Source: Saprospiraceae bacterium (GTDB lineage: Bacteria > Bacteroidota > Bacteroidia > Chitinophagales > Saprospiraceae). Taken from it: 64,000 nucleotides of DNA. The notes beneath the pieces were generated by a model. It ran no database searches. It was not told where the DNA came from and was given only the letters and a program-made list of their open reading frames with translations. How positions within the stretch are numbered: the stretch's first letter is position 1; each line of letters begins with the position of its first letter. Positions 45,021 to 63,413 of this stretch are shown piece by piece. A program made the position numbers and the translations under genes. The stretch spans positions 372,001 through 436,000 of the forward strand of contig JAQXDE010000035.1 of assembly GCA_029251525.1 (NCBI GenBank), given 5' to 3'.

Positions 45021-47909
45021 CTACCTTCCAGATCGGTCTAAGTTACTACTATTTGCTTGTTGTCTCCCCATCATCAAAACATCTTGAATATTCACGTGAG
45101 CTGGTTGAGTTGCAATAAAGTAAATTGTATTCGCAACATCCTCTGCTCGAAGTGGTTGAAAATCTTCATAAATCTTTGCTCGCTCTTCATCCCAGTCAAA
45201 TCGAACTCTGGCAAATTCTGTTTCTTCCACATGTGCTGGACTTACTTGGCTAACTCGTAACCCATATTTATATAGATCCAATCGCATACCTTTTGTCAAG
45301 GCATCAACTGCATGTTTCGTAGCACAGTAAACATTGCCCTTCGGATAAACCTCATGGCCGGCAGTAGAGCAGACATTGATAATATGTCCTTTTTTTCGAG
45401 CAACCATTCTCGGAGAAATTAAGCGGGTCAGGTATAACAATCCTTTTACATTAGTATCAATCATCGTTTCCCAGTCAACCAATTTACCTTCATGAATAGG
45501 GTCAAATCCTTTGGCTAACCCGGCATTATTAATTAATAAATCAATTGAGTTGAAACCTTTAGGAAGTCCGGCGATTGCAGTTTGAGCTTGAGCAATTTTT
45601 CTAACGTCAAAGTCTAAAGTCTGAACTTCTGTTGGATAATTTTCCTCAAAATCAGCTTTGATTTCTGCAAGCCTATCAGTACGCCTTCCTGTTAAAATTA
45701 ATCGAAAGCCGTTTTGAGCAAAAATAGCAGCAGTTGCTTTTCCGATTCCTGAGGTAGCACCTGAAATAAAAACTACTTTGTCAAAATTTTCATTTTGACT
45801 AGTAGCTTCATGAGGCAATATCAATTTATTAATACTTTTTGATGGTTGAGTTTTTTTAATTTTTGATTTTTCTTTTCTTTTAGCTGAAGTATTCGAAGCT
45901 TCTTGAGTTTCTTTGTCAAAGTTTTTTTTACTTGACTTGAGGGCATTTAGGAATGCTCGGTCATTAGCTTTTGTTTTTAATTCTGGGTTAATTTTACAGG
46001 CTTGGCGATAGTACTTTTTGGCCTTTTTATACTTTCCAATACGATGGAATAATAAGGCTAAATCGTAACTAACAAATTTGTGGTTGTCTTGTAATTTTTT
46101 GGTTATTTTAAACTGCCGTAGTGCCTTTTTTGGTTTTTTTAGATGCTCAACTAAAATTAATCCATAGCGGTAATGAGCATCGGTAATACTATTATCAATT
46201 TTGATTGATAATTTTAAATAATTGGCTGCTTGATTTTGTAAGTCAGGAAATTTAGTCATTATTAAAACACCTAGCTTGTATAATAAATCAGCATTTTTCT
46301 GATCGGAATCTATAGCCTGTTCAAGATAATTCTTGCTCAATGCATAATCACCTTTGTTAGAAGCAAACTCAGAGAGTTGAACCAAAGCACCAATATGATT
46401 AGGATTCAATTTGAGCAGCTTTTCTAATTCATGTTGAGCTGATGCAGTATTTTCTCCACTTTTCAATAGATTCAAAGCATATTCATATTTTAATACCTGA
46501 TTATCCTCATTTTTTTCTGTCAGTTCTCTAAGATGTTTTAGTCCTGCATTTAGTTCTCCATTTTTGATTAGTTCATTTCCTTTTTCTAATTGTTCCTGCC
46601 ATGTAGGATTTACCTTTTCAATACTCTCTGATTCAGGCTTTGCAATACTGGATAATGTAAAACTTCCAATCATATCATCTGAATCTAATTCATCATCGTC
46701 ATCATGAAATATCTCATTTAAAATATGGTGAGAAGGAACATTGCTTTTTGTTGATTTATGGTTTTTCCTTTCTAGTTTATCCTCATCTAAATTTTTTTTC
46801 TCAATTGCTTTTTTATCTGCATTTTCAAAGACTTCATCCTTTTTATCATTTTCTAAAAGCATAAGATCAATTAATTTTGAATTATTTTGATTAAGGTTTT
46901 CGTCAGGTAGAATAGTAGTTTTCACTGATTGATCCCCGATTTGAAAATCAATTTTTCGTTGTTCAATTAACTTATCAATTGTAGGGGCTTTGTTTTTTTT
47001 CTTTATGTTGTCCTTTGAAACCTTAAGTAAATTGGTATCATCTTTTTGAATTAATTCTTGTTGAAAAGATGGAATATCCTTTGAGTCATTAATATCTTCT
47101 ATTCGTTCAATTAAATTTTTATTGGACAATTCTTCTTCAATAGATTTTTCATCATTAGTTGCTAATTCCCTTTTAGATTCATCTTTTTTTAGATTTAAAT
47201 TTAATAGAGAGTCTTTATTTTCATTTGCAGGTTTTGTGGAAGGAGGAGTAATTATATTGGGAATAGTACTGTTTACTTTGGGGATTTCATTAATATTAAT
47301 TGCTTGCTTTAGTGCTGCATGCAAAGCGGGTTTCTTTATGGATTGAAAAAATAATTCATAATTATTATGTGTAAATTTTTCAAATGTCCAACAGTTTGAA
47401 TTTTTTAATAATTTTAAAAAGTCACCCATTTCTGAAGAGATACTTCTAATTATTTTTAGATTTTCGTCAAATTTATCTAAATCAGAGATTGAAGTTGATC
47501 TTCGTTCTTTTCTTAAGTCTAAATATCGATCCTGCCAAAAATTCATATATTGAATTACATGTGTCATTCGATCAAAGACTGTTTTTACATTTTTAAATGA
47601 ATTTGCTCCTTCGACTGGTTCACGGCCATCAATAATGATCGGTTGGACACGATTATTCATAGTCAATTCTTGAAGCATAAAAAGGCTTTGATTCATACAA
47701 TTGACATTCTTTAAAAAGTTTTTACTTACGAGAATGAAAACAAAATATGGAACAGTACTCAATCGCTCTTGTAATTGTTTTTCATCTCTTGCATGATTTA
47801 TCCTGATATGATCTAATTCGATTCCAACTTTGGATAGTTGATGATCAATTTGTTGTGCAATGTATTGATTGTCAACTGAATACGCAAGATGGAATTTATT
47901 GTCGTTCAT
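45021..47909 (-). CDS. TIR - TPR - short-chain dehydrogenase fusion protein
   Basis: 962 residues with three parts. Residues 1 to about 190 look like a TIR domain: strand-helix opening FHLAYSVDNQYIAQQIDHQL, then VPYFVFILVSKNFLKNVNC and LQELTM (Glu about 81 in the place of the catalytic Glu of TIR NADases), then VQPIIIDG. Residues about 210-430 are a charged, Lys/Asp/Glu/Asn-rich linker. Residues about 432-650 hold several TPR repeats (GDYALSKNYLEQAIDSDQKN, GKYKKAKKYYRQACKINPEL). Residues about 708-955 are a complete SDR: FISGATSGIGKATA for NAD(P), NNAG, NVCSTAG, and YCATK with catalytic Tyr/Lys, most like the YdfG-type 3-hydroxy-acid dehydrogenases. One continuous frame supports a true fusion. 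No signal peptide, so cytoplasmic. Combining a potential NAD-cleaving or signalling domain with a NAD(P)-dependent enzyme is unusual; the function is unknown. Confidence 0.8.
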   Translation of the reverse strand: MNDNKFHLAYSVDNQYIAQQIDHQLSKVGIELDHIRINHARDEKQLQERLSTVPYFVFILVSKNFLKNVNCMNQSLFMLQELTMNNRVQPIIIDGREPVEGANSFKNVKTVFDRMTHVIQYMNFWQDRYLDLRKERRSTSISDLDKFDENLKIIRSISSEMGDFLKLLKNSNCWTFEKFTHNNYELFFQSIKKPALHAALKQAININEIPKVNSTIPNIITPPSTKPANENKDSLLNLNLKKDESKRELATNDEKSIEEELSNKNLIERIEDINDSKDIPSFQQELIQKDDTNLLKVSKDNIKKKNKAPTIDKLIEQRKIDFQIGDQSVKTTILPDENLNQNNSKLIDLMLLENDKKDEVFENADKKAIEKKNLDEDKLERKNHKSTKSNVPSHHILNEIFHDDDDELDSDDMIGSFTLSSIAKPESESIEKVNPTWQEQLEKGNELIKNGELNAGLKHLRELTEKNEDNQVLKYEYALNLLKSGENTASAQHELEKLLKLNPNHIGALVQLSEFASNKGDYALSKNYLEQAIDSDQKNADLLYKLGVLIMTKFPDLQNQAANYLKLSIKIDNSITDAHYRYGLILVEHLKKPKKALRQFKITKKLQDNHKFVSYDLALLFHRIGKYKKAKKYYRQACKINPELKTKANDRAFLNALKSSKKNFDKETQEASNTSAKRKEKSKIKKTQPSKSINKLILPHEATSQNENFDKVVFISGATSGIGKATAAIFAQNGFRLILTGRRTDRLAEIKADFEENYPTEVQTLDFDVRKIAQAQTAIAGLPKGFNSIDLLINNAGLAKGFDPIHEGKLVDWETMIDTNVKGLLYLTRLISPRMVARKKGHIINVCSTAGHEVYPKGNVYCATKHAVDALTKGMRLDLYKYGLRVSQVSPAHVEETEFARVRFDWDEERAKIYEDFQPLRAEDVANTIYFIATQPAHVNIQDVLMMGRQQANSSNLDRSGR

Positions 47910-47965: not shown

Positions 47966-49300
47966 CTAGTTAACGTTTCCAACCAAGATCTCTTGAACAC
48001 TTAATTTAAATTCTTTTTTAAAATTTTCAAATTCGCTTGTTGCAGGTCCATTAAAGCCAGTATGGATTTTTGTCACTTTATCATTTTTATCAATAAAAAT
48101 CATAGTAGGAAAGGATAAAATATGATTCAACATTGGTAACGACTGAGCGGCTTCTTTTTTATCAGAATAACCTGCAATTAATATTTCGTAAGGTAATTTT
48201 AATTTGTTTTTATATCTTTTTACAGAGGCAGTTGCTTTATCTATTTCCCTGTGTTTTTCGAAAGCTAATGCTACTACTTCTAAATCTGTGTGTTTATTGT
48301 TATTTAAATAATCTTTAAGGAAGTTGGTTTCGTCTCGACAATTTGGGCACCAAGTTCCAAAGATTTGGATGATTTTTGCTTTACCTCTAAATTTCTCATC
48401 ATTAAGGGAAACGATCTTTCCATCAGTATTTGGAAATTCAAATTCAATCTTATCATACCCCTCCTTTAAAAAAGTCAAATCGTTTGGGTTCGTTAATTTT
48501 GCGTTATTATTTTTTTTGGCTTTCCAAACTGTTTTGTAATGTTTTCCAGAACGAAAAGAACCTATCATAGTACTATCAGAGGTATTTATTTTTGCTTCAT
48601 ATAAAAAAGCATGAGCACCATCAAATACGGAAAGATAAACTTTACTATCTTGAATCTCTCCCTCTAGAAACCTATAATCACCAGTTTCAGTCATAAAAGT
48701 TCCAGTCACTATATTACCATTTTGTTTAAATTCTCCAATACCAAAATAAGGGGTTTCGTCAAGAAATGTAACCTCCCATTTCCCACTAATATCCATTACT
48801 GGTTTTTTTCGGACAGTTGAGAACCGATAAGTTTCTCCATGTTTCGCAATGAACGGTATTTGGTAATTACCTCGAGATGGAACTACCCAAACACCTTCCA
48901 TAACCCTTTCTTCAAAAATTGCTTTGATGTAGGTTTCATATAGTGGGAAATTGATAACCACCGTATCCTTTGCAGTTGAACGATCAAGCCCAATAGTTAC
49001 ATCATCTATTCTAATTCGTTCCTCACCATTTATTATCTCGATGTGAAATTCGGATTCTGAATCATGAATTACTTCAAAGTTAAATGGTAACTCACCATCT
49101 GTTACTTCATCAAACTCAAGACCCATTAGTTCAGGAAGTGGTTCTGCTTTTTTATTGACGACCTTTGGTTTATTATCTAGTTTCAAAACTGCTCGCCATT
49201 TGCCTGGAGGCAGCCCCTCAAATCCTGTATCAACTGTAATGCAAGATTGAAACATCATACTCACAAAAAGACAAAAAAATAAGATTAGTGAATTTTTCAT
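47966..49300 (-). CDS. TlpA-like thioredoxin-domain lipoprotein
   Basis: 444 residues. The signal peptide ends in a lipobox-like FQSC (Cys about 19). Residues about 30-285 form beta-rich domains (GKWRAVLKLDNKP, ISGKWEVTFLDETPYFG) typical of the N-terminal DUF4369-like part of Bacteroidota TlpA proteins. The C-terminal thioredoxin fold has the redox motif in IFGTWCPNCRDE near residue 318 and the cis-Pro segment LSFPTMIFID. It is probably a membrane-anchored periplasmic thiol-disulfide oxidoreductase. It lies 56 bases downstream of the TIR-TPR-SDR start region, with the same orientation. Confidence 0.85.
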   Translation of the reverse strand: MKNSLILFFCLFVSMMFQSCITVDTGFEGLPPGKWRAVLKLDNKPKVVNKKAEPLPELMGLEFDEVTDGELPFNFEVIHDSESEFHIEIINGEERIRIDDVTIGLDRSTAKDTVVINFPLYETYIKAIFEERVMEGVWVVPSRGNYQIPFIAKHGETYRFSTVRKKPVMDISGKWEVTFLDETPYFGIGEFKQNGNIVTGTFMTETGDYRFLEGEIQDSKVYLSVFDGAHAFLYEAKINTSDSTMIGSFRSGKHYKTVWKAKKNNNAKLTNPNDLTFLKEGYDKIEFEFPNTDGKIVSLNDEKFRGKAKIIQIFGTWCPNCRDETNFLKDYLNNNKHTDLEVVALAFEKHREIDKATASVKRYKNKLKLPYEILIAGYSDKKEAAQSLPMLNHILSFPTMIFIDKNDKVTKIHTGFNGPATSEFENFKKEFKLSVQEILVGNVN

Positions 49301-49366: not shown

Positions 49367-49903
49367 CTAAGTTCGACCTCCTACAAAGTGATCGTTTTTA
49401 TATTTGAATAAAATATTAAAGGAAGTCAAACTTCCATAAATTCGGGTTATATATTGTTGTAAGTTTACTTTTTCCTCATCTGTTAATTTGCTGCTGTTAA
49501 TACGTTGCTCCATTACCCGCAATCTATCCCTAACCATCACTATTTTATGAAAAAAGGTGTCAATTGGCATCTCCTTAGATTTCATATTATCATCAGCTGG
49601 TTTTAAAACTAAAGTCCCACCATCCCATTTATCTCCCAATTCTACAACATCAGTTAATCCAGCCCACTTATATAAAATTTTCTCTAATGATTTTTCTGCT
49701 TCTGAGAAAGAAACTTCAGCATCGGGAGGCATTGCCTCAATGACCTCCCATTTAGTATATTCTTTGCCGACATTTTTAATACCATAAGTCATGAAGCAAA
49801 CTTCATAAGCAATTTTATGTAAACGGATAACTACGCCTTGTCCATATGAAGGGTGGGTTACTCGACTTCCAATACCTAAAATTTGAGATGTTATTTCTGT
49901 CAT
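49367..49903 (-). CDS. Hypothetical protein with an N-terminal SH3/Tudor-like domain
   Basis: 178 residues from the ATG at 49903 (MTEITSQILGIGSRVTHPSY); an upstream in-frame ATG at 49927 is less likely. The N-terminal 60 residues (GSRVTHPSYGQGVVIRLHKI, YEVCFMTYG, WEVIEAMPP) resemble the small beta-barrel found at the UvrD/PcrA C terminus and in CarD-like proteins, where it contacts RNA polymerase. The rest is helical, with charged residues (MVRDRLRVMEQRINSSKLTD). No signal peptide. I do not recognise the full-length family. A role in transcription or repair by contact with RNA polymerase is a guess from the barrel-like motif only. Confidence 0.6.
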   Translation of the reverse strand: MTEITSQILGIGSRVTHPSYGQGVVIRLHKIAYEVCFMTYGIKNVGKEYTKWEVIEAMPPDAEVSFSEAEKSLEKILYKWAGLTDVVELGDKWDGGTLVLKPADDNMKSKEMPIDTFFHKIVMVRDRLRVMEQRINSSKLTDEEKVNLQQYITRIYGSLTSFNILFKYKNDHFVGGRT

Positions 49904-50039
49904 ATTTGTAAATAAGATTTTATTCAAAGTAAAAATATCAAAAGTTGTACGCCTAAAAATACAAAAAAGTTTATTGTTTTATAATAAGTCTTGTACTCCC
50001 AAAAATATGTACCTAAAATGATAAATTATACCTATTATT

Positions 50040-52828: not shown

Positions 52829-54190
52829 TTAAATTATAGCATCGAGGTTATCATCCCAATCTTTTACTCTAGGAGGTCCTAATTTACCAACACTTTTTCC
52901 AACTAGCATTGCAACAGTTGCATCTCCAGTGACATTGACAACTGTCCGACACATATCTAATGGTCGGTCAACTGCAAAAATTAAGGCAAGTCCGATAGCT
53001 AACTTCTCTTGTGGTAATCCTATAGTTTCAAGTACGACTACTAACATGACCATGCCAGCACCTGGAACTGCAGCAGAACCGATTGAGGCTAAAGTTGCAG
53101 TTGCGATAATTGTTAATTGGTCAGCAAAGGAGAGGTCATGTTTAAGTGCGAGACAAATAAATACAGCGGCAACGGCTTGATATAAACTTGTTCCATCCAT
53201 ATTTACAGTTGCACCAACGGGACAAACAAATGCAGTAACCTCTTTTTCCACTCCAATGTGTTCTTCGACTCTCTCCATAGTAACAGGCAAGGTTGCTGCA
53301 CTAGAACTTGTTGAAAAGGCAACTAATTGAGCAGGAATTAATGCTTTGATAAATCCGATCGGTGAACGTCCTGTGAAAAAGTAAACCAAGGTCATGTAAA
53401 AAACAATCATTGACAGTAATCCTAACAAGACGGTAAAAGAATATTTTATTAACTCGACCAAAATTTCAGGATCACCTGCTGAGACAATTACTCCGGCTAA
53501 AAGAGCAAAAACTGCATAAGGAGCAATTATCATTATTAAATCCACCATTTTTAGGATGACTTCGTTCAATCCATCGAAAAAACCTTTTACATAAACGGAT
53601 TTTTCTCTATCTATCAATAATAAACTTATCCCAAAAAACAGCGCAAAGAAAATAACTTGCAACATTTTTCCATTATCAGTGGTTGCCTTGAATATATTAT
53701 TAGGAACTATATCTACTACAAATGCTAGTGGCCCGCTTCCTTTTTGACTTTGAGCAGTAGCCATTTTTTTGTTTACATTAGCCACCGCTGACGCATCATT
53801 ATTATGTGCTGAAATTAATTTATCTAAAGTCTCTTGAGAAATATCTGCCCCAGGCTGGATTACATTTACAACAGTTAATCCTATGGATACCGCAATAATG
53901 GTAGTTATTAAATAAATGCCGATTGTGCGTCCACCAATTTGGGAAAATTTTGTAATGTCGCCTAAATCAGCAATTCCTTTAATTAAAGAAGCTAGGATCA
54001 AAGGAATGGCTATTAACTTTAACAGGTTAATAAAAATAGTGCCAATGGGAGCTATCCAATCGTTTACAAACTTGACTCCTTCATGAATTTCTGGAGTAGT
54101 GGAACTATCCCATTGAGTCATCCCCATACCAAAAAGTACCCCGAGAACCATTCCAATTAATATTTTCCAGTGTAATGCTAAATTTTTCAT
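52829..54190 (-). CDS. Dicarboxylate/amino-acid:cation symporter (DAACS family)
   Basis: 453 residues with about eight hydrophobic helices and two re-entrant loops. Family signatures are the serine-rich loop AFSTSSSAATLPVTM, the MDGTSLYQA segment and the C-terminal FAVDRPLDMCRTVVNVTGD motif with the Asp/Arg/Thr/Asn substrate-binding pattern. Family members import glutamate, aspartate or C4-dicarboxylates with sodium ions or protons. An extra loop of about 50 residues (INVIQPGADISQETLDKLIS to SQKGSGP) is typical of the Bacteroidota branch. It lies next to alanine dehydrogenase, so amino-acid uptake and use may be linked. Exact substrate and cation are not fixed by sequence. Confidence 0.9.
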   Translation of the reverse strand: MKNLALHWKILIGMVLGVLFGMGMTQWDSSTTPEIHEGVKFVNDWIAPIGTIFINLLKLIAIPLILASLIKGIADLGDITKFSQIGGRTIGIYLITTIIAVSIGLTVVNVIQPGADISQETLDKLISAHNNDASAVANVNKKMATAQSQKGSGPLAFVVDIVPNNIFKATTDNGKMLQVIFFALFFGISLLLIDREKSVYVKGFFDGLNEVILKMVDLIMIIAPYAVFALLAGVIVSAGDPEILVELIKYSFTVLLGLLSMIVFYMTLVYFFTGRSPIGFIKALIPAQLVAFSTSSSAATLPVTMERVEEHIGVEKEVTAFVCPVGATVNMDGTSLYQAVAAVFICLALKHDLSFADQLTIIATATLASIGSAAVPGAGMVMLVVVLETIGLPQEKLAIGLALIFAVDRPLDMCRTVVNVTGDATVAMLVGKSVGKLGPPRVKDWDDNLDAII

Positions 54191-57107: not shown

Positions 57108-60100
57108 TTAATCTTGTAGCTGCCATAGCCATACCGCATTATTTGCAAAATATCCGATTTTACTTCCTTGCTCTACTCTAAAGATGTTTTGTCGTTGTTC
57201 CAACTCTATGAAATCATAAATTGATTCCAAAATCATATTTCCATCTTCATCGTACAATCCAAAAAGTTCGGTGGCAATGGCAGAAAACATATTTTTTTGA
57301 AGCGGAAATATTTTTTGAAACTTATAAGGAATGATTTGATAACCACGTTGAGTTAGTGTGCCCCATTTTTGATTAGCAAGTTGTGATAGTCCAATATTAT
57401 TTTGAAAAGGTTCAACATTATTAAACCTCTTTCGATTAAAAAGGTGTTTCCCTTGAGAATTTGTATAATAGCAATAGGTACTTTGAACGTTTCCATTATT
57501 ATCTCTAATAAATCTTCTAAGGCCATATTTGTTTTCTGCAAAATGGAGTACCATTCCATTATTTTTCAATTCAATATGTTGTCCATTTTTATCAATCACT
57601 AAATTTGCACTTTTTTCTGAACGACGAAGAGTTACGATTGCTTTTCCATTTTTAAAAGGTTCTGCCTTTGAAAATTTTCCTTTAAAGGCAATTTTATTTT
57701 CCATATTGATATATTGCCACATAAAGGAAAAACCATGTTGAACAGCAACTAAACCCTCTGATAATTCACCAACTGCTCGATATCGTGGAGGAATTACTTC
57801 ATTACCGAGTGAGTCTACAAAACCAATTCCTTTCGAGGTTACTATTTTGGCATAACCTTTATTGAATGGAAAAATTTTTTTATAGATGCATGGAGTTAAT
57901 ATCTGACCCTCTCGATTGATTAATCCATAATCTCCCATAAAATTTACTCGTGCCTGTGCAATTCCATTTTCTTCAAAAGGGAAAACTAAGTCGTATTTTT
58001 TAGCAGGCATTATAAAGTTTCCATTCACATCAATCAGCCCTGTTTTTCTATTTTTTACTACCCGAGCTCTACCTTGCTGAAAATCAAAAGCTTTAGTGAA
58101 AACAGAATTGATCATTGATTTTCCAGTCTTATCCATGAATCCGTAATAAAATTTATTGTTTCTTTTGATTTTATACCAACAAAGACCTGCTGAAAAATTT
58201 CCAATGGACAAATATTCTGTCTCTCTTAGGTCCAATATTATTTCTAAAGTTGAATCAATAAAATACCAACCCATCTTATCTTGTACAGCTGCCCAACCTT
58301 CACTAAAAGAATTAATAACATTATATTCACAGGGTAAAACTTCTTCCCCATTCTCATTAACTAAGCCCCATTTTCCATTTTTATTAACGGCACAAAACCC
58401 TTCAGAAAATTCTTTGAATTTATCATAGCCCCAATCCACAACAGAGTTACCAAGTGAGTTGTAAAATACTGGTCGTTTATTTTTTACGCCTACCTTCATA
58501 TAATTATCTTCCCATTGGATACTTCGATATTTAAAATCTAAAACAGGTCTATTATATTGATCTATAGCTCCCCAATATTCTTTATTTTCACAAATTGCAG
58601 TTTTGTTTTCAAAGTCTCTGACATATTCATAAGTAGGTGGAATGATTACATTTCCAATAGTATCAATAAATCCCCAAGTTCCACCAACTATAAATAAGTC
58701 ACTCGTTGGTAATGTATTGAAACGATTGAACCTTATTTGATAGTTATATTGAAAGGTGGTAGTTGTGTTAATTTTATTGCCTTTTTCTTTTCCATTTTTT
58801 ATTTTTCTAACAACTCCCCCTAAACAAATTCTAGCTTTGCCTTCATAAAAATCTCCTATGTAATTAAAGGTTCTTTTGTTTTGGTAAATTTTTCCCTTTT
58901 TGTCAATGAGCGTAAATTTTCCGTCTTTATCCAAAACCCTAGCCAGAGGCAGGTCATAATAAAAATCCTCTATTTGTATACCAAGAAATTCAAAGTCAGT
59001 AACAAATTTTTCTTGTTGATGACTATAAAATGCAATTCCAAAAGATCCTGTTTTAGGCCGAATGGATAACATATTTAGAATTTCATTTTCCTCTATTTTT
59101 TTATCATAATTATAGACAATTGTTAAATCCGTAAAAGGTAATTTTTTGATGAATTCATATTGGGGTTTAATTAAAATTTCATTGGTGCTTTTCCTTTTTA
59201 ACCCCCAAAGCCCCCAGTCAAAATACCATAACACATCACTATCATTTATTAAACTGTAATTTGGCTTTTTCTTTTTACCTCTGCCATTATTTACTCTTCT
59301 TCTTCGATTTCCTCGTTGGTTAAAGTTGGTAATATTGGGTAGTATATCTACTGTATCATCATAACCAATTCGGAGAGTGTAAACTTCTGGATAAATTTCC
59401 AATAGCTTTAGTTGATCCAAAGAGTCGACTTGGAAGTAGTGCATTTTGGTACCCAGAAATGCTTTGACAAATTTATCTTGGAATTGGAAATACTCAAATT
59501 TGGTTTTTGCAATTTCTTCACCTTTTCGATTAATTAAACCTGATTTTCCTTTAACACTAACTTCAGCAAATTGATTTTGAAATGAGTTAATTACGTCATA
59601 AATAATAGAAGCCACTAATCCTTGATTTAAGTTATAAACTCCCCACTGAAATTTTTGCACTTTAAATAAAGTATCTCCTTCTAAATGTAATATTTGTTTA
59701 TATCGTGGAGGAATAACTATTTTTCCTAGAGTATCGATTAGGCCATATTTGCCATCCTTTTTTCCTAAAAGAAAATTACTTCGAAATTTAGTGTATTCAT
59801 CAAATTCAGTTTTGACCGAAATAAATTTTTTACTTTTTAATGAGTAAATTTTTGTTCTATTTTTAATATTACTAGAAAAGGAGAGGAATGAGGAAGATAA
59901 TATGTTGACTTCGGACCATTTATCTTTTTCAGATATGTAAATATTGTTTTTATTGTCTCGTAGCTCGAAAAACTCTTTTTTGGTCAGATAGAGATTTTCA
60001 TTTATCATTTTGATAGAATCAAACTCGGCAGGTAAAACAATATTGTTTTCAAAATCTATAATCCCGTATTTTTCTTTTTTAGCAGAAGTCTCTGTTTTGA

Positions 60101-60638
60101 ATTCTAGAAAAGGTTTTCGATTTTTATGAATTTTAAGTAGAAGATATTCAGGTTGGATAATATACCCTTCGCCTTTTTTTAGTAAGCCATATTTCCCATT
60201 CTCTCTAATAATATAAAAATTCCTAATAGCGGAAATAGGAATAACTTCTTCATATTTTCCATCAAATAAAGTTTCTCCTTTTTCATTAACAACTAATAGT
60301 TTCCCATCATTCTTTACTGTAAAAACAGAGTCAGGGAAAACATCAATTACTTCGTCGAAAAGTGGTGCTAAAATTTCTTCTCCTTGAAAAGTAATTAGTC
60401 CAATTTTATTATCTGATTGCACAGTTATATAATTGGAGGTAAATCTAGAAACTGTAGTTCTTTGCATGCCAAATTTATTCCCAATTAGATCATATTTTGG
60501 CTCCATAACTATATTTCCATTTTCATCAATCAATCCCCATTTTTGCTTTATCTTTATTGGCAATAAGTTACTTGCTTCAAATTGTGCAGAAGTTAAAAGA
60601 TATAAGATGGAAAAAAGAAAGGTGAGACGGTACCGCAT
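57108..60638 (-). CDS. Giant WG-repeat protein
   Basis: 1176 residues. After a signal peptide (LTFLFSILYLLTSAQ) the protein consists mostly of WG (KWG) repeats of about 25-50 residues. Examples are KWGLIDENGNIVMEPKYDLI, KYGLIDTLGKIVIPPRYKQI, GKWGLVNENGEEVLPCEYN, RKTGLIDVNGNFIMPAKKYD and KGIGFVDSLGNEVIPPRYRA. I count more than a dozen clear copies. A basic insertion (RGNRRRRVNNGRGKKKKPN) lies mid-protein at about residues 440-460. No T9SS tail or lipobox is seen, so the location is probably periplasmic. WG-repeat proteins have no firm biochemical role. The gene follows a probable lipoprotein gene by 131 bases, with a stable hairpin just ahead of its start. Confidence 0.85.
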   Translation of the reverse strand: MRYRLTFLFSILYLLTSAQFEASNLLPIKIKQKWGLIDENGNIVMEPKYDLIGNKFGMQRTTVSRFTSNYITVQSDNKIGLITFQGEEILAPLFDEVIDVFPDSVFTVKNDGKLLVVNEKGETLFDGKYEEVIPISAIRNFYIIRENGKYGLLKKGEGYIIQPEYLLLKIHKNRKPFLEFKTETSAKKEKYGIIDFENNIVLPAEFDSIKMINENLYLTKKEFFELRDNKNNIYISEKDKWSEVNILSSSFLSFSSNIKNRTKIYSLKSKKFISVKTEFDEYTKFRSNFLLGKKDGKYGLIDTLGKIVIPPRYKQILHLEGDTLFKVQKFQWGVYNLNQGLVASIIYDVINSFQNQFAEVSVKGKSGLINRKGEEIAKTKFEYFQFQDKFVKAFLGTKMHYFQVDSLDQLKLLEIYPEVYTLRIGYDDTVDILPNITNFNQRGNRRRRVNNGRGKKKKPNYSLINDSDVLWYFDWGLWGLKRKSTNEILIKPQYEFIKKLPFTDLTIVYNYDKKIEENEILNMLSIRPKTGSFGIAFYSHQQEKFVTDFEFLGIQIEDFYYDLPLARVLDKDGKFTLIDKKGKIYQNKRTFNYIGDFYEGKARICLGGVVRKIKNGKEKGNKINTTTTFQYNYQIRFNRFNTLPTSDLFIVGGTWGFIDTIGNVIIPPTYEYVRDFENKTAICENKEYWGAIDQYNRPVLDFKYRSIQWEDNYMKVGVKNKRPVFYNSLGNSVVDWGYDKFKEFSEGFCAVNKNGKWGLVNENGEEVLPCEYNVINSFSEGWAAVQDKMGWYFIDSTLEIILDLRETEYLSIGNFSAGLCWYKIKRNNKFYYGFMDKTGKSMINSVFTKAFDFQQGRARVVKNRKTGLIDVNGNFIMPAKKYDLVFPFEENGIAQARVNFMGDYGLINREGQILTPCIYKKIFPFNKGYAKIVTSKGIGFVDSLGNEVIPPRYRAVGELSEGLVAVQHGFSFMWQYINMENKIAFKGKFSKAEPFKNGKAIVTLRRSEKSANLVIDKNGQHIELKNNGMVLHFAENKYGLRRFIRDNNGNVQSTYCYYTNSQGKHLFNRKRFNNVEPFQNNIGLSQLANQKWGTLTQRGYQIIPYKFQKIFPLQKNMFSAIATELFGLYDEDGNMILESIYDFIELEQRQNIFRVEQGSKIGYFANNAVWLWQLQD

Positions 60639-62726: not shown

Positions 62727-63413
62727 TTATTGTAATGCATTAAACTTATAACCAACACCTCGTATTGATAAAAAGTGCTTGGGTTCTCGTGGATTTTTTT
62801 CAAAATATTTTCTAAACGAGAGGATAAAATTATCAATTGTTCTAGTCGAAGGATAGACATCATATCCCCAAACTGATTGAAGAATTTGTTGCCTTGATAC
62901 TACTTCATCTTTTCTATCGATTAGTAATTTTAGTAACTTAACCTCCTTTTTGGTTAGGTTAAAACTTCCATTGATAGTTTCTGCTACAAAAGTGGTGAAA
63001 TTGATTTTATTGTTGCCAAAGGTGTAAATTTTTAAAACATTTTCGGATGACTTACTGCTTCGTTTTATCAAATTATTGACCCTTAATAGCAACTCTTCCA
63101 AGTGAAAAGGTTTCGTTAAATAATCGTCGGCTCCCTTTTTGAGTCCATTAATCCTGTCTAGCGAAGTGTCTTTGGCTGTTAAAAATATAATGGGTACTTC
63201 CATATTTGATAGACGGACTTGCTCGCATATTTGGTAACCATCGACATCAGGAAGCATTACATCCAAAATCAATAAATCAAAATGTTGTTCTTCAATTTTT
63301 TTTAATGCGTCTTTTCCATTTCCGGAGGTAATAACCTCATAATCTTCTAATTCCAAATTTAGTTTGACGACATCTCTAATATTTTCTTCATCTTCAACAA
63401 GTAAGATTCTCAT
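62727..63413 (-). CDS. OmpR-family response regulator
   Basis: 228 residues. The receiver domain (1-120) has the acidic pocket VEDEE, the phospho-acceptor Asp51 in LILDVMLPD, Thr79 in FLTAKD and Lys101 in YLTKPF. A winged-helix trans_reg_C domain (about 130-228) contains FNLTKKEVKLLKLLIDRKDE and VVSRQQILQSVWGYDVYPST. The sensor kinase gene lies immediately upstream (28 bases) on the same strand, so they form a two-component pair. This RR/HK type is common in Bacteroidota; the signal is unknown. Confidence 0.93.
   Translation of the reverse strand: MRILLVEDEENIRDVVKLNLELEDYEVITSGNGKDALKKIEEQHFDLLILDVMLPDVDGYQICEQVRLSNMEVPIIFLTAKDTSLDRINGLKKGADDYLTKPFHLEELLLRVNNLIKRSSKSSENVLKIYTFGNNKINFTTFVAETINGSFNLTKKEVKLLKLLIDRKDEVVSRQQILQSVWGYDVYPSTRTIDNFILSFRKYFEKNPREPKHFLSIRGVGYKFNALQ

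Follow-up and report, generated by a model that had tools for sequence, protein, structure and literature searches.

A gene on the minus strand of the window (the whole stretch of Saprospiraceae DNA analysed here, 64,000 nt) codes for a 962-residue protein that joins a TIR fold, a charged linker, a TPR superhelix and an intact SDR domain, and its TIR carries a glutamine at the position of the catalytic glutamate. Since the NAD-cutting glutamate has apparently been lost, the TIR probably does not work as a defence enzyme but as a scaffold on which a metabolic enzyme is clustered. The reading that we favour, with a probability of roughly 0.55, is that the pseudo-TIR and the TPR serve as a scaffold for clustering or docking a YdfG-like, probably NADP(H)-dependent reductase.

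Domain layout of the fusion protein

The gene is a single 962-codon frame with an ATG start and no internal stops, and it encodes the uninterrupted order of TIR, charged linker, TPR and SDR that an earlier note on this DNA had described. The features of the protein are:

45021..47909, minus strand: TIR-linker-TPR-SDR fusion protein, 962 aa (ORF; order kept in relatives)
47295..47909, minus strand: TIR fold with a helical extension, residues 1-205 (structure prediction and structure matches)
47688..47690, minus strand: CAA codon of Gln74, where TIR NADases have their catalytic Glu (family motif C-M-x-x)
47667..47669, minus strand: codon of Glu81, the earlier note's catalytic candidate; not conserved and not the catalytic position
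46611..47288, minus strand: Lys/Glu/Asp-rich disordered linker, residues 208-433 (full-length model; dN/dS)
45870..46601, minus strand: TPR superhelix, residues 437-680 (Pfam and full-length model)
45021..45791, minus strand: SDR domain of the classical, YdfG-like type, residues 707-962, with catalytic S848, Y861 and K865

In the 962-aa protein, Pfam places adh_short at residues 711-905 (E 6e-51) and several TPR models, all above cutoff, inside residues 449-680, where the full-length model forms an alpha-solenoid, as expected of a TPR protein. The same model is ordered in residues 1-205 (TIR and helices), 437-680 (TPR) and about 707-950 (SDR) and disordered in 208-433; with a pTM of 0.37, it is uninformative on the contacts and placement of the domains.

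The TIR_2 match at residues 8-98 reached 20.0 bits (E 0.001), against a Pfam gathering score of 28 that is exceeded by the relatives L006 (30.6 bits) and L009 (29.6). Residues 1-205 were modeled by AlphaFold2 from an alignment of 23 relatives with a mean pLDDT of 94.9 and a pTM of 0.89. When this model was matched against solved structures, for which Foldseek was also run, the best PDB matches were TIR domains, namely TcpB (Z 11.1), PdTIR (11.0), BtTir (10.9) and AbTir (10.0). Structure prediction, which the earlier note had proposed as a check of its N-terminal domain, thus returns a TIR fold (pLDDT ca. 95, Z ca. 11). Compared with the sequences of solved structures, a profile of the family TIRs has MyD88 as its best match (E 1e-4). 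The SDNFLK motif and Gly95 are strongly conserved in the family TIR alignment, and Y121 and W125, within the helical extension, are invariant. No TIR paralogues were found elsewhere in the same genome.

The SDR domain contains all the motifs of a classical SDR (GATSGIG at 717-723, NNAG at 794-797, and the catalytic S848, Y861 and K865), as the earlier note had read it, and orthologues, whether fused or stand-alone, have kept its catalytic residues intact. The top-scoring model family was YdfG, with 234 bits against an equivalog cutoff of 411 (NCBIfam NF007829), so that the domain is YdfG-like and falls short of the equivalog. Its closest solved relatives are E. coli 3asu (YdfG / serine dehydrogenase), sulfoacetaldehyde reductase 6ixj and yeast YMR226C, which have all the SDR catalytic motifs in common with it but, in contrast to it, are stand-alone enzymes. 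A pair of arginines, R742 and R743, follows beta-2 of the SDR and, together with the YdfG-type relatives, suggests NADP(H) as the cofactor, in place of the NAD linkage by which the earlier note had named the protein.

The glutamate position of the TIR domain

In the family alignment, the column of the NADase glutamate corresponds to residue 74, and the window protein reads C71-M72-N73-Q74 there, with no glutamate at the WCxxE position after the alpha-C cysteine. Among 111 family TIRs this residue is G in 34, Q in 18, R in 14, N in 14, D in 8, E in 6 and K in 6, plus others, and is thus different from Glu in 105 of them. All three outgroup TIRs from other families have Glu at this position (L044 CMME, L045 CMHE and L046 CMFE), and that of L046 falls, in the alignments, on the catalytic-Glu region of Roq1 (motif WCLEEL) and matches BtTir. 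Glu81 was rejected as the catalytic residue, being off-register and poorly conserved (Glu in 31/111); the true position is that of Gln74. All prokaryotic TIRs examined require this glutamate for NADase activity, and TLR4 and MyD88 are without such activity (review, PMC7282519). In the profile alignment, MyD88 carries Gln at the NADase-Glu position, like the window protein. Judged from these residues, the TIR of the window protein is probably not an NADase.

The six bearers of Glu at position 74 (L092, L158, L176, L190, L195 and L202) form one nested clade in the TIR tree and share the motif CMYE/CMFE...NFLQNPS. Because of this glutamate, some family members could be active NADases, a point against the scaffold reading, and the clade is possibly NADase-competent, with the residue either retained or regained. 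These members, and the TIR fold itself, are what speaks for the proposal of the earlier note that an active TIR NADase, or cyclic-ADPR signaller, is coupled to the SDR as effector or sensor, possibly in defence. We consider this proposal very improbable for the window protein, given Gln74, the absence of Glu from 105 of the 111 members against its presence in 3/3 outgroups, the lack of a PADLOC match and a near-universal SDR at a syntenic locus, which is not a variable island.

PADLOC returned no family for the fusion protein or for its two adjacent upstream neighbours, and thus nothing that corresponds to an anti-phage TIR system already described, such as Thoeris. An orthologue of the SDR occurs in 195 of 217 good genomes of the family, nearly always in single copy. 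As these proteins lack a PADLOC match and their locus is syntenic, a defence island was rejected, and the defence role suggested earlier is not borne out. Elsewhere in the window, a 228-aa ORF (62727-63413) gave weak PADLOC candidate-defence matches (PDC-M60B, E 2e-7), probably through a shared generic domain, and 57108-60638 codes for a 1176-aa WG beta-repeat protein (Pfam E 4e-102). In other Bacteroidota families, a TIR is joined to a dynamin-like GTPase (L045:1336-3537 and L046:1-2085), and the L046 gene adjoins a DNA-methylase-like gene, an arrangement that resembles a defence system.

Where dS could be measured in pairwise comparisons of relatives, dN/dS was 0.03-0.14 for the TIR, 0.05-0.12 for the TPR, 0.015-0.12 for the SDR and 0.11-0.38 for the linker, values that are rough because dS is high in those pairs (0.5-3). 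The linker, residues 208-433, is the fastest-evolving part of the protein. The values for the TIR reject a decaying pseudo-domain; as estimated from these comparisons, strong purifying selection is maintaining the TIR despite the loss of the glutamate.

In an alternative reading, the pseudo-TIR is a nucleotide sensor that would bind NAD(P)(H) or an ADP-ribose product, leave it uncleaved and thereby gate the SDR. The fold of the TIR nucleotide pocket is retained, the SDNFLK motif and Gly95 are strongly conserved, and the SDR uses the same cofactor class; however, the residue at the pocket position is free to vary (G, Q, R, N, D, K), and we regard gating by a bound nucleotide as unlikely.

Distribution of the fusion and its locus

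A search for the fusion protein in 61 related genomes showed its domain order in many genera of the family, for which the matching records give the name Saprospiraceae, whereas the SDR stands alone in the order's other families. Of the 42 family loci that were fetched and have a TIR, 39 have the whole fusion in a single frame. The exceptions are L099, at a contig end, L100, which lacks the SDR, and L105, in which the genes are split. A set of 80 named loci, overlapping the 42, comprised 70 fused, 7 ended by the contig, 2 without the SDR and 1 with a separate SDR, that is, 70 fused among 73 complete loci. Recurrence of the domain order in dozens of independently assembled genomes means that it is due neither to a chance frame nor to an assembly error, and both were rejected; the search for this order in other genomes that the earlier note had called for therefore comes out in its favour across Saprospiraceae.

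A TIR match with E of 1e-5 or better was present in 175 of 298 sampled family genomes, covering 75 of 112 genera, although a few of the 175 have weak matches that may be other TIRs. Among 395 class-level genomes, strong TIR matches occurred in three, all Saprospiraceae, and weak ones in five from other families. In the genus of the window genome, one genome (G004, 96% complete) lacks the SDR orthologue and has only weak TIR matches. A contig labelled Thermoanaerobaculia (L200, JAKLJF010000276.1) carries the fusion and a redoxin gene, and is probably misbinned, or else reflects transfer.

Upstream of the fusion gene there are three genes that recur in relatives:

47966..49300, minus strand: probable lipoprotein, 444 aa, with a C-terminal Redoxin/AhpC-TSA domain (ResA/TlpA-like) and a GTWCPNC motif
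49367..49927, minus strand: second conserved neighbour, ca. 177-186 aa, without a match in Pfam or NCBIfam
52829..54190, minus strand: sodium:dicarboxylate symporter family gene, upstream in about half of loci

The redoxin gene lies on the same strand, 56 bp upstream of the fusion gene; of 42 fusion-type loci 36 have this neighbour, as do 6 of 7 unfused family loci. Since this gene for a thioredoxin-like lipoprotein precedes the SDR whether or not the genome has the fusion, there is a partner locus, contrary to the earlier view that there was no obvious partner gene. In the unfused genomes, the SDR gene lies almost directly behind the redoxin gene, which places the TIR-TPR module between two otherwise adjacent genes. 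Redoxin genes of this kind occur widely through the order, but there on contigs other than that of the SDR (e.g., G037). The 177-186 aa neighbour and its orthologues share the motif GIGSRVxHPxxGxGVxIxLxxxxYEVCF. In L085 (10312-11145) and L087 (10210-11076) the upstream redoxin gene codes for only 278-289 aa, with the match ending near residue 267; the redoxin domain seems to have been lost there, the N-terminal part and the fusion being kept. A scan for promoters and terminators was uninformative, with promoters near the shuffle expectation.

Support was poor for a tree of the SDR only and better for a tree of redoxin plus SDR, on which the fused state is clustered (2 state changes vs. 4.7 in shuffles); the fusion locus looks vertically inherited. 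The TIR-TPR module was either added once within the family and then occasionally lost, or added early and then lost.

The linkage to the redoxin gene raises the possibility that TIR-TPR mainly serves the locus of the redoxin lipoprotein and the 177-aa protein, for instance in envelope redox stress, and that the SDR was fused as a neighbour, more for co-expression than for mechanism. Besides the 36 linked loci, two of the exceptional loci favour this. In L105 (7405-9908, genome G467), TIR-TPR (562 aa) and SDR (268 aa) are separate neighbours, with a gap of ca. 8 bp, that stay behind the redoxin gene. L100 (7194-9716, genome G518) has a TIR-TPR gene without SDR, also with the redoxin gene directly upstream; as close SDR orthologues are missing from this genome (best identity 34%), the module can have an SDR-independent role, which also counts against the scaffold reading. 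However, the redoxin is probably exported as a lipoprotein, whereas TIR, TPR and SDR should be cytosolic, since a signal is absent. The fusion is moreover retained in 39/42 loci and persists in L095, L108, L110, L112, L113 and L117, where the redoxin is unlinked or absent nearby. A main role in the redoxin locus is thus conceivable but rather doubtful. Some share of probability, beyond the scaffold and the three alternatives weighed above, belongs to an explanation outside those considered.

A proposed scaffolded reductase and its relation to known systems

According to the preferred reading, of a scaffold that clusters or docks the reductase, a near-universal and single-copy YdfG-type SDR would have gained a TIR-TPR module at its N terminus in Saprospiraceae. 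The TIR, without its NADase glutamate, would be a non-enzymatic assembly domain, MyD88-like, acting through self-association, with presumed oligomerisation, or through partner binding. The TPR superhelix would hold a putative client and the disordered linker would serve as a tether. Clustered or docked in this way, the SDR would carry out ordinary small-molecule redox chemistry on a presumed carbonyl or hydroxyacid substrate with its predicted cofactor. The fusion protein may also be functionally tied to the redoxin.

There are precedents for TIR scaffolds, for TIR-TPR proteins and for YdfG-type SDRs. MyD88 and TIRAP share the TIR fold with the window protein and are non-enzymatic, and MyD88 is the solved protein that the family profile resembles best; they are, however, animal immune adaptors with a death domain, whereas here a bacterial TIR is placed on a TPR and a metabolic enzyme. 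The TIR of the window protein resembles MyD88 in sequence and would most likely be a scaffold of the same kind. The bacterial TIR NADases AbTir, BtTir, TcpB and PdTIR have the closest folds (Z 10-11), but the window protein differs from them by Gln74 in place of Glu and by an extra helical extension with the invariant Y121 and W125. The L044-L046 proteins, including the TIR joined to a dynamin-like GTPase, have an SDxxLKSxxCM motif and a YxxxW helix in common with the family, but they keep Glu and have other domains attached.

What may be new is the combination of TIR, TPR and YdfG-type SDR, which was not found in the literature searched: searches on TIR with SDR and TPR, and on Saprospiraceae with TIR, returned nothing within a scope that excluded subscription papers and preprints available only on bioRxiv. 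The parts seen of an eLife 2020 survey of conflict systems in multicellular prokaryotes mention TIRs and TPRs and do not describe the TIR-TPR-SDR architecture. As regards the earlier note as a whole, its domain order, its intact SDR and its statement that it was aware of no described system of this order stand, and NAD signalling, the lack of a partner, the role in defence and an NAD-linked SDR were not upheld.

To our knowledge, nearly all bacterial TIRs studied are NAD-consuming defence effectors. A broader proposal, which we put forward tentatively and hold less probable than the scaffold itself, is that Saprospiraceae domesticated an immune-type TIR, which lost its NADase activity and may act in most genera as a MyD88-like scaffold on a housekeeping NADPH reductase, while one clade either got the glutamate back or never lost it. 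The hypothesis is testable, since the architecture has cultured carriers (Phaeodactylibacter xiamenensis, P. luteus and Flavilitoribacter nigricans). If it is true, the scaffold TIRs of animals would have a counterpart in bacteria, a TIR that lacks the glutamate and is selectively kept across the family at a near-universal metabolic locus, and the family would offer a case of immune-module domestication, in the form of a TIR-assembled metabolic enzyme.
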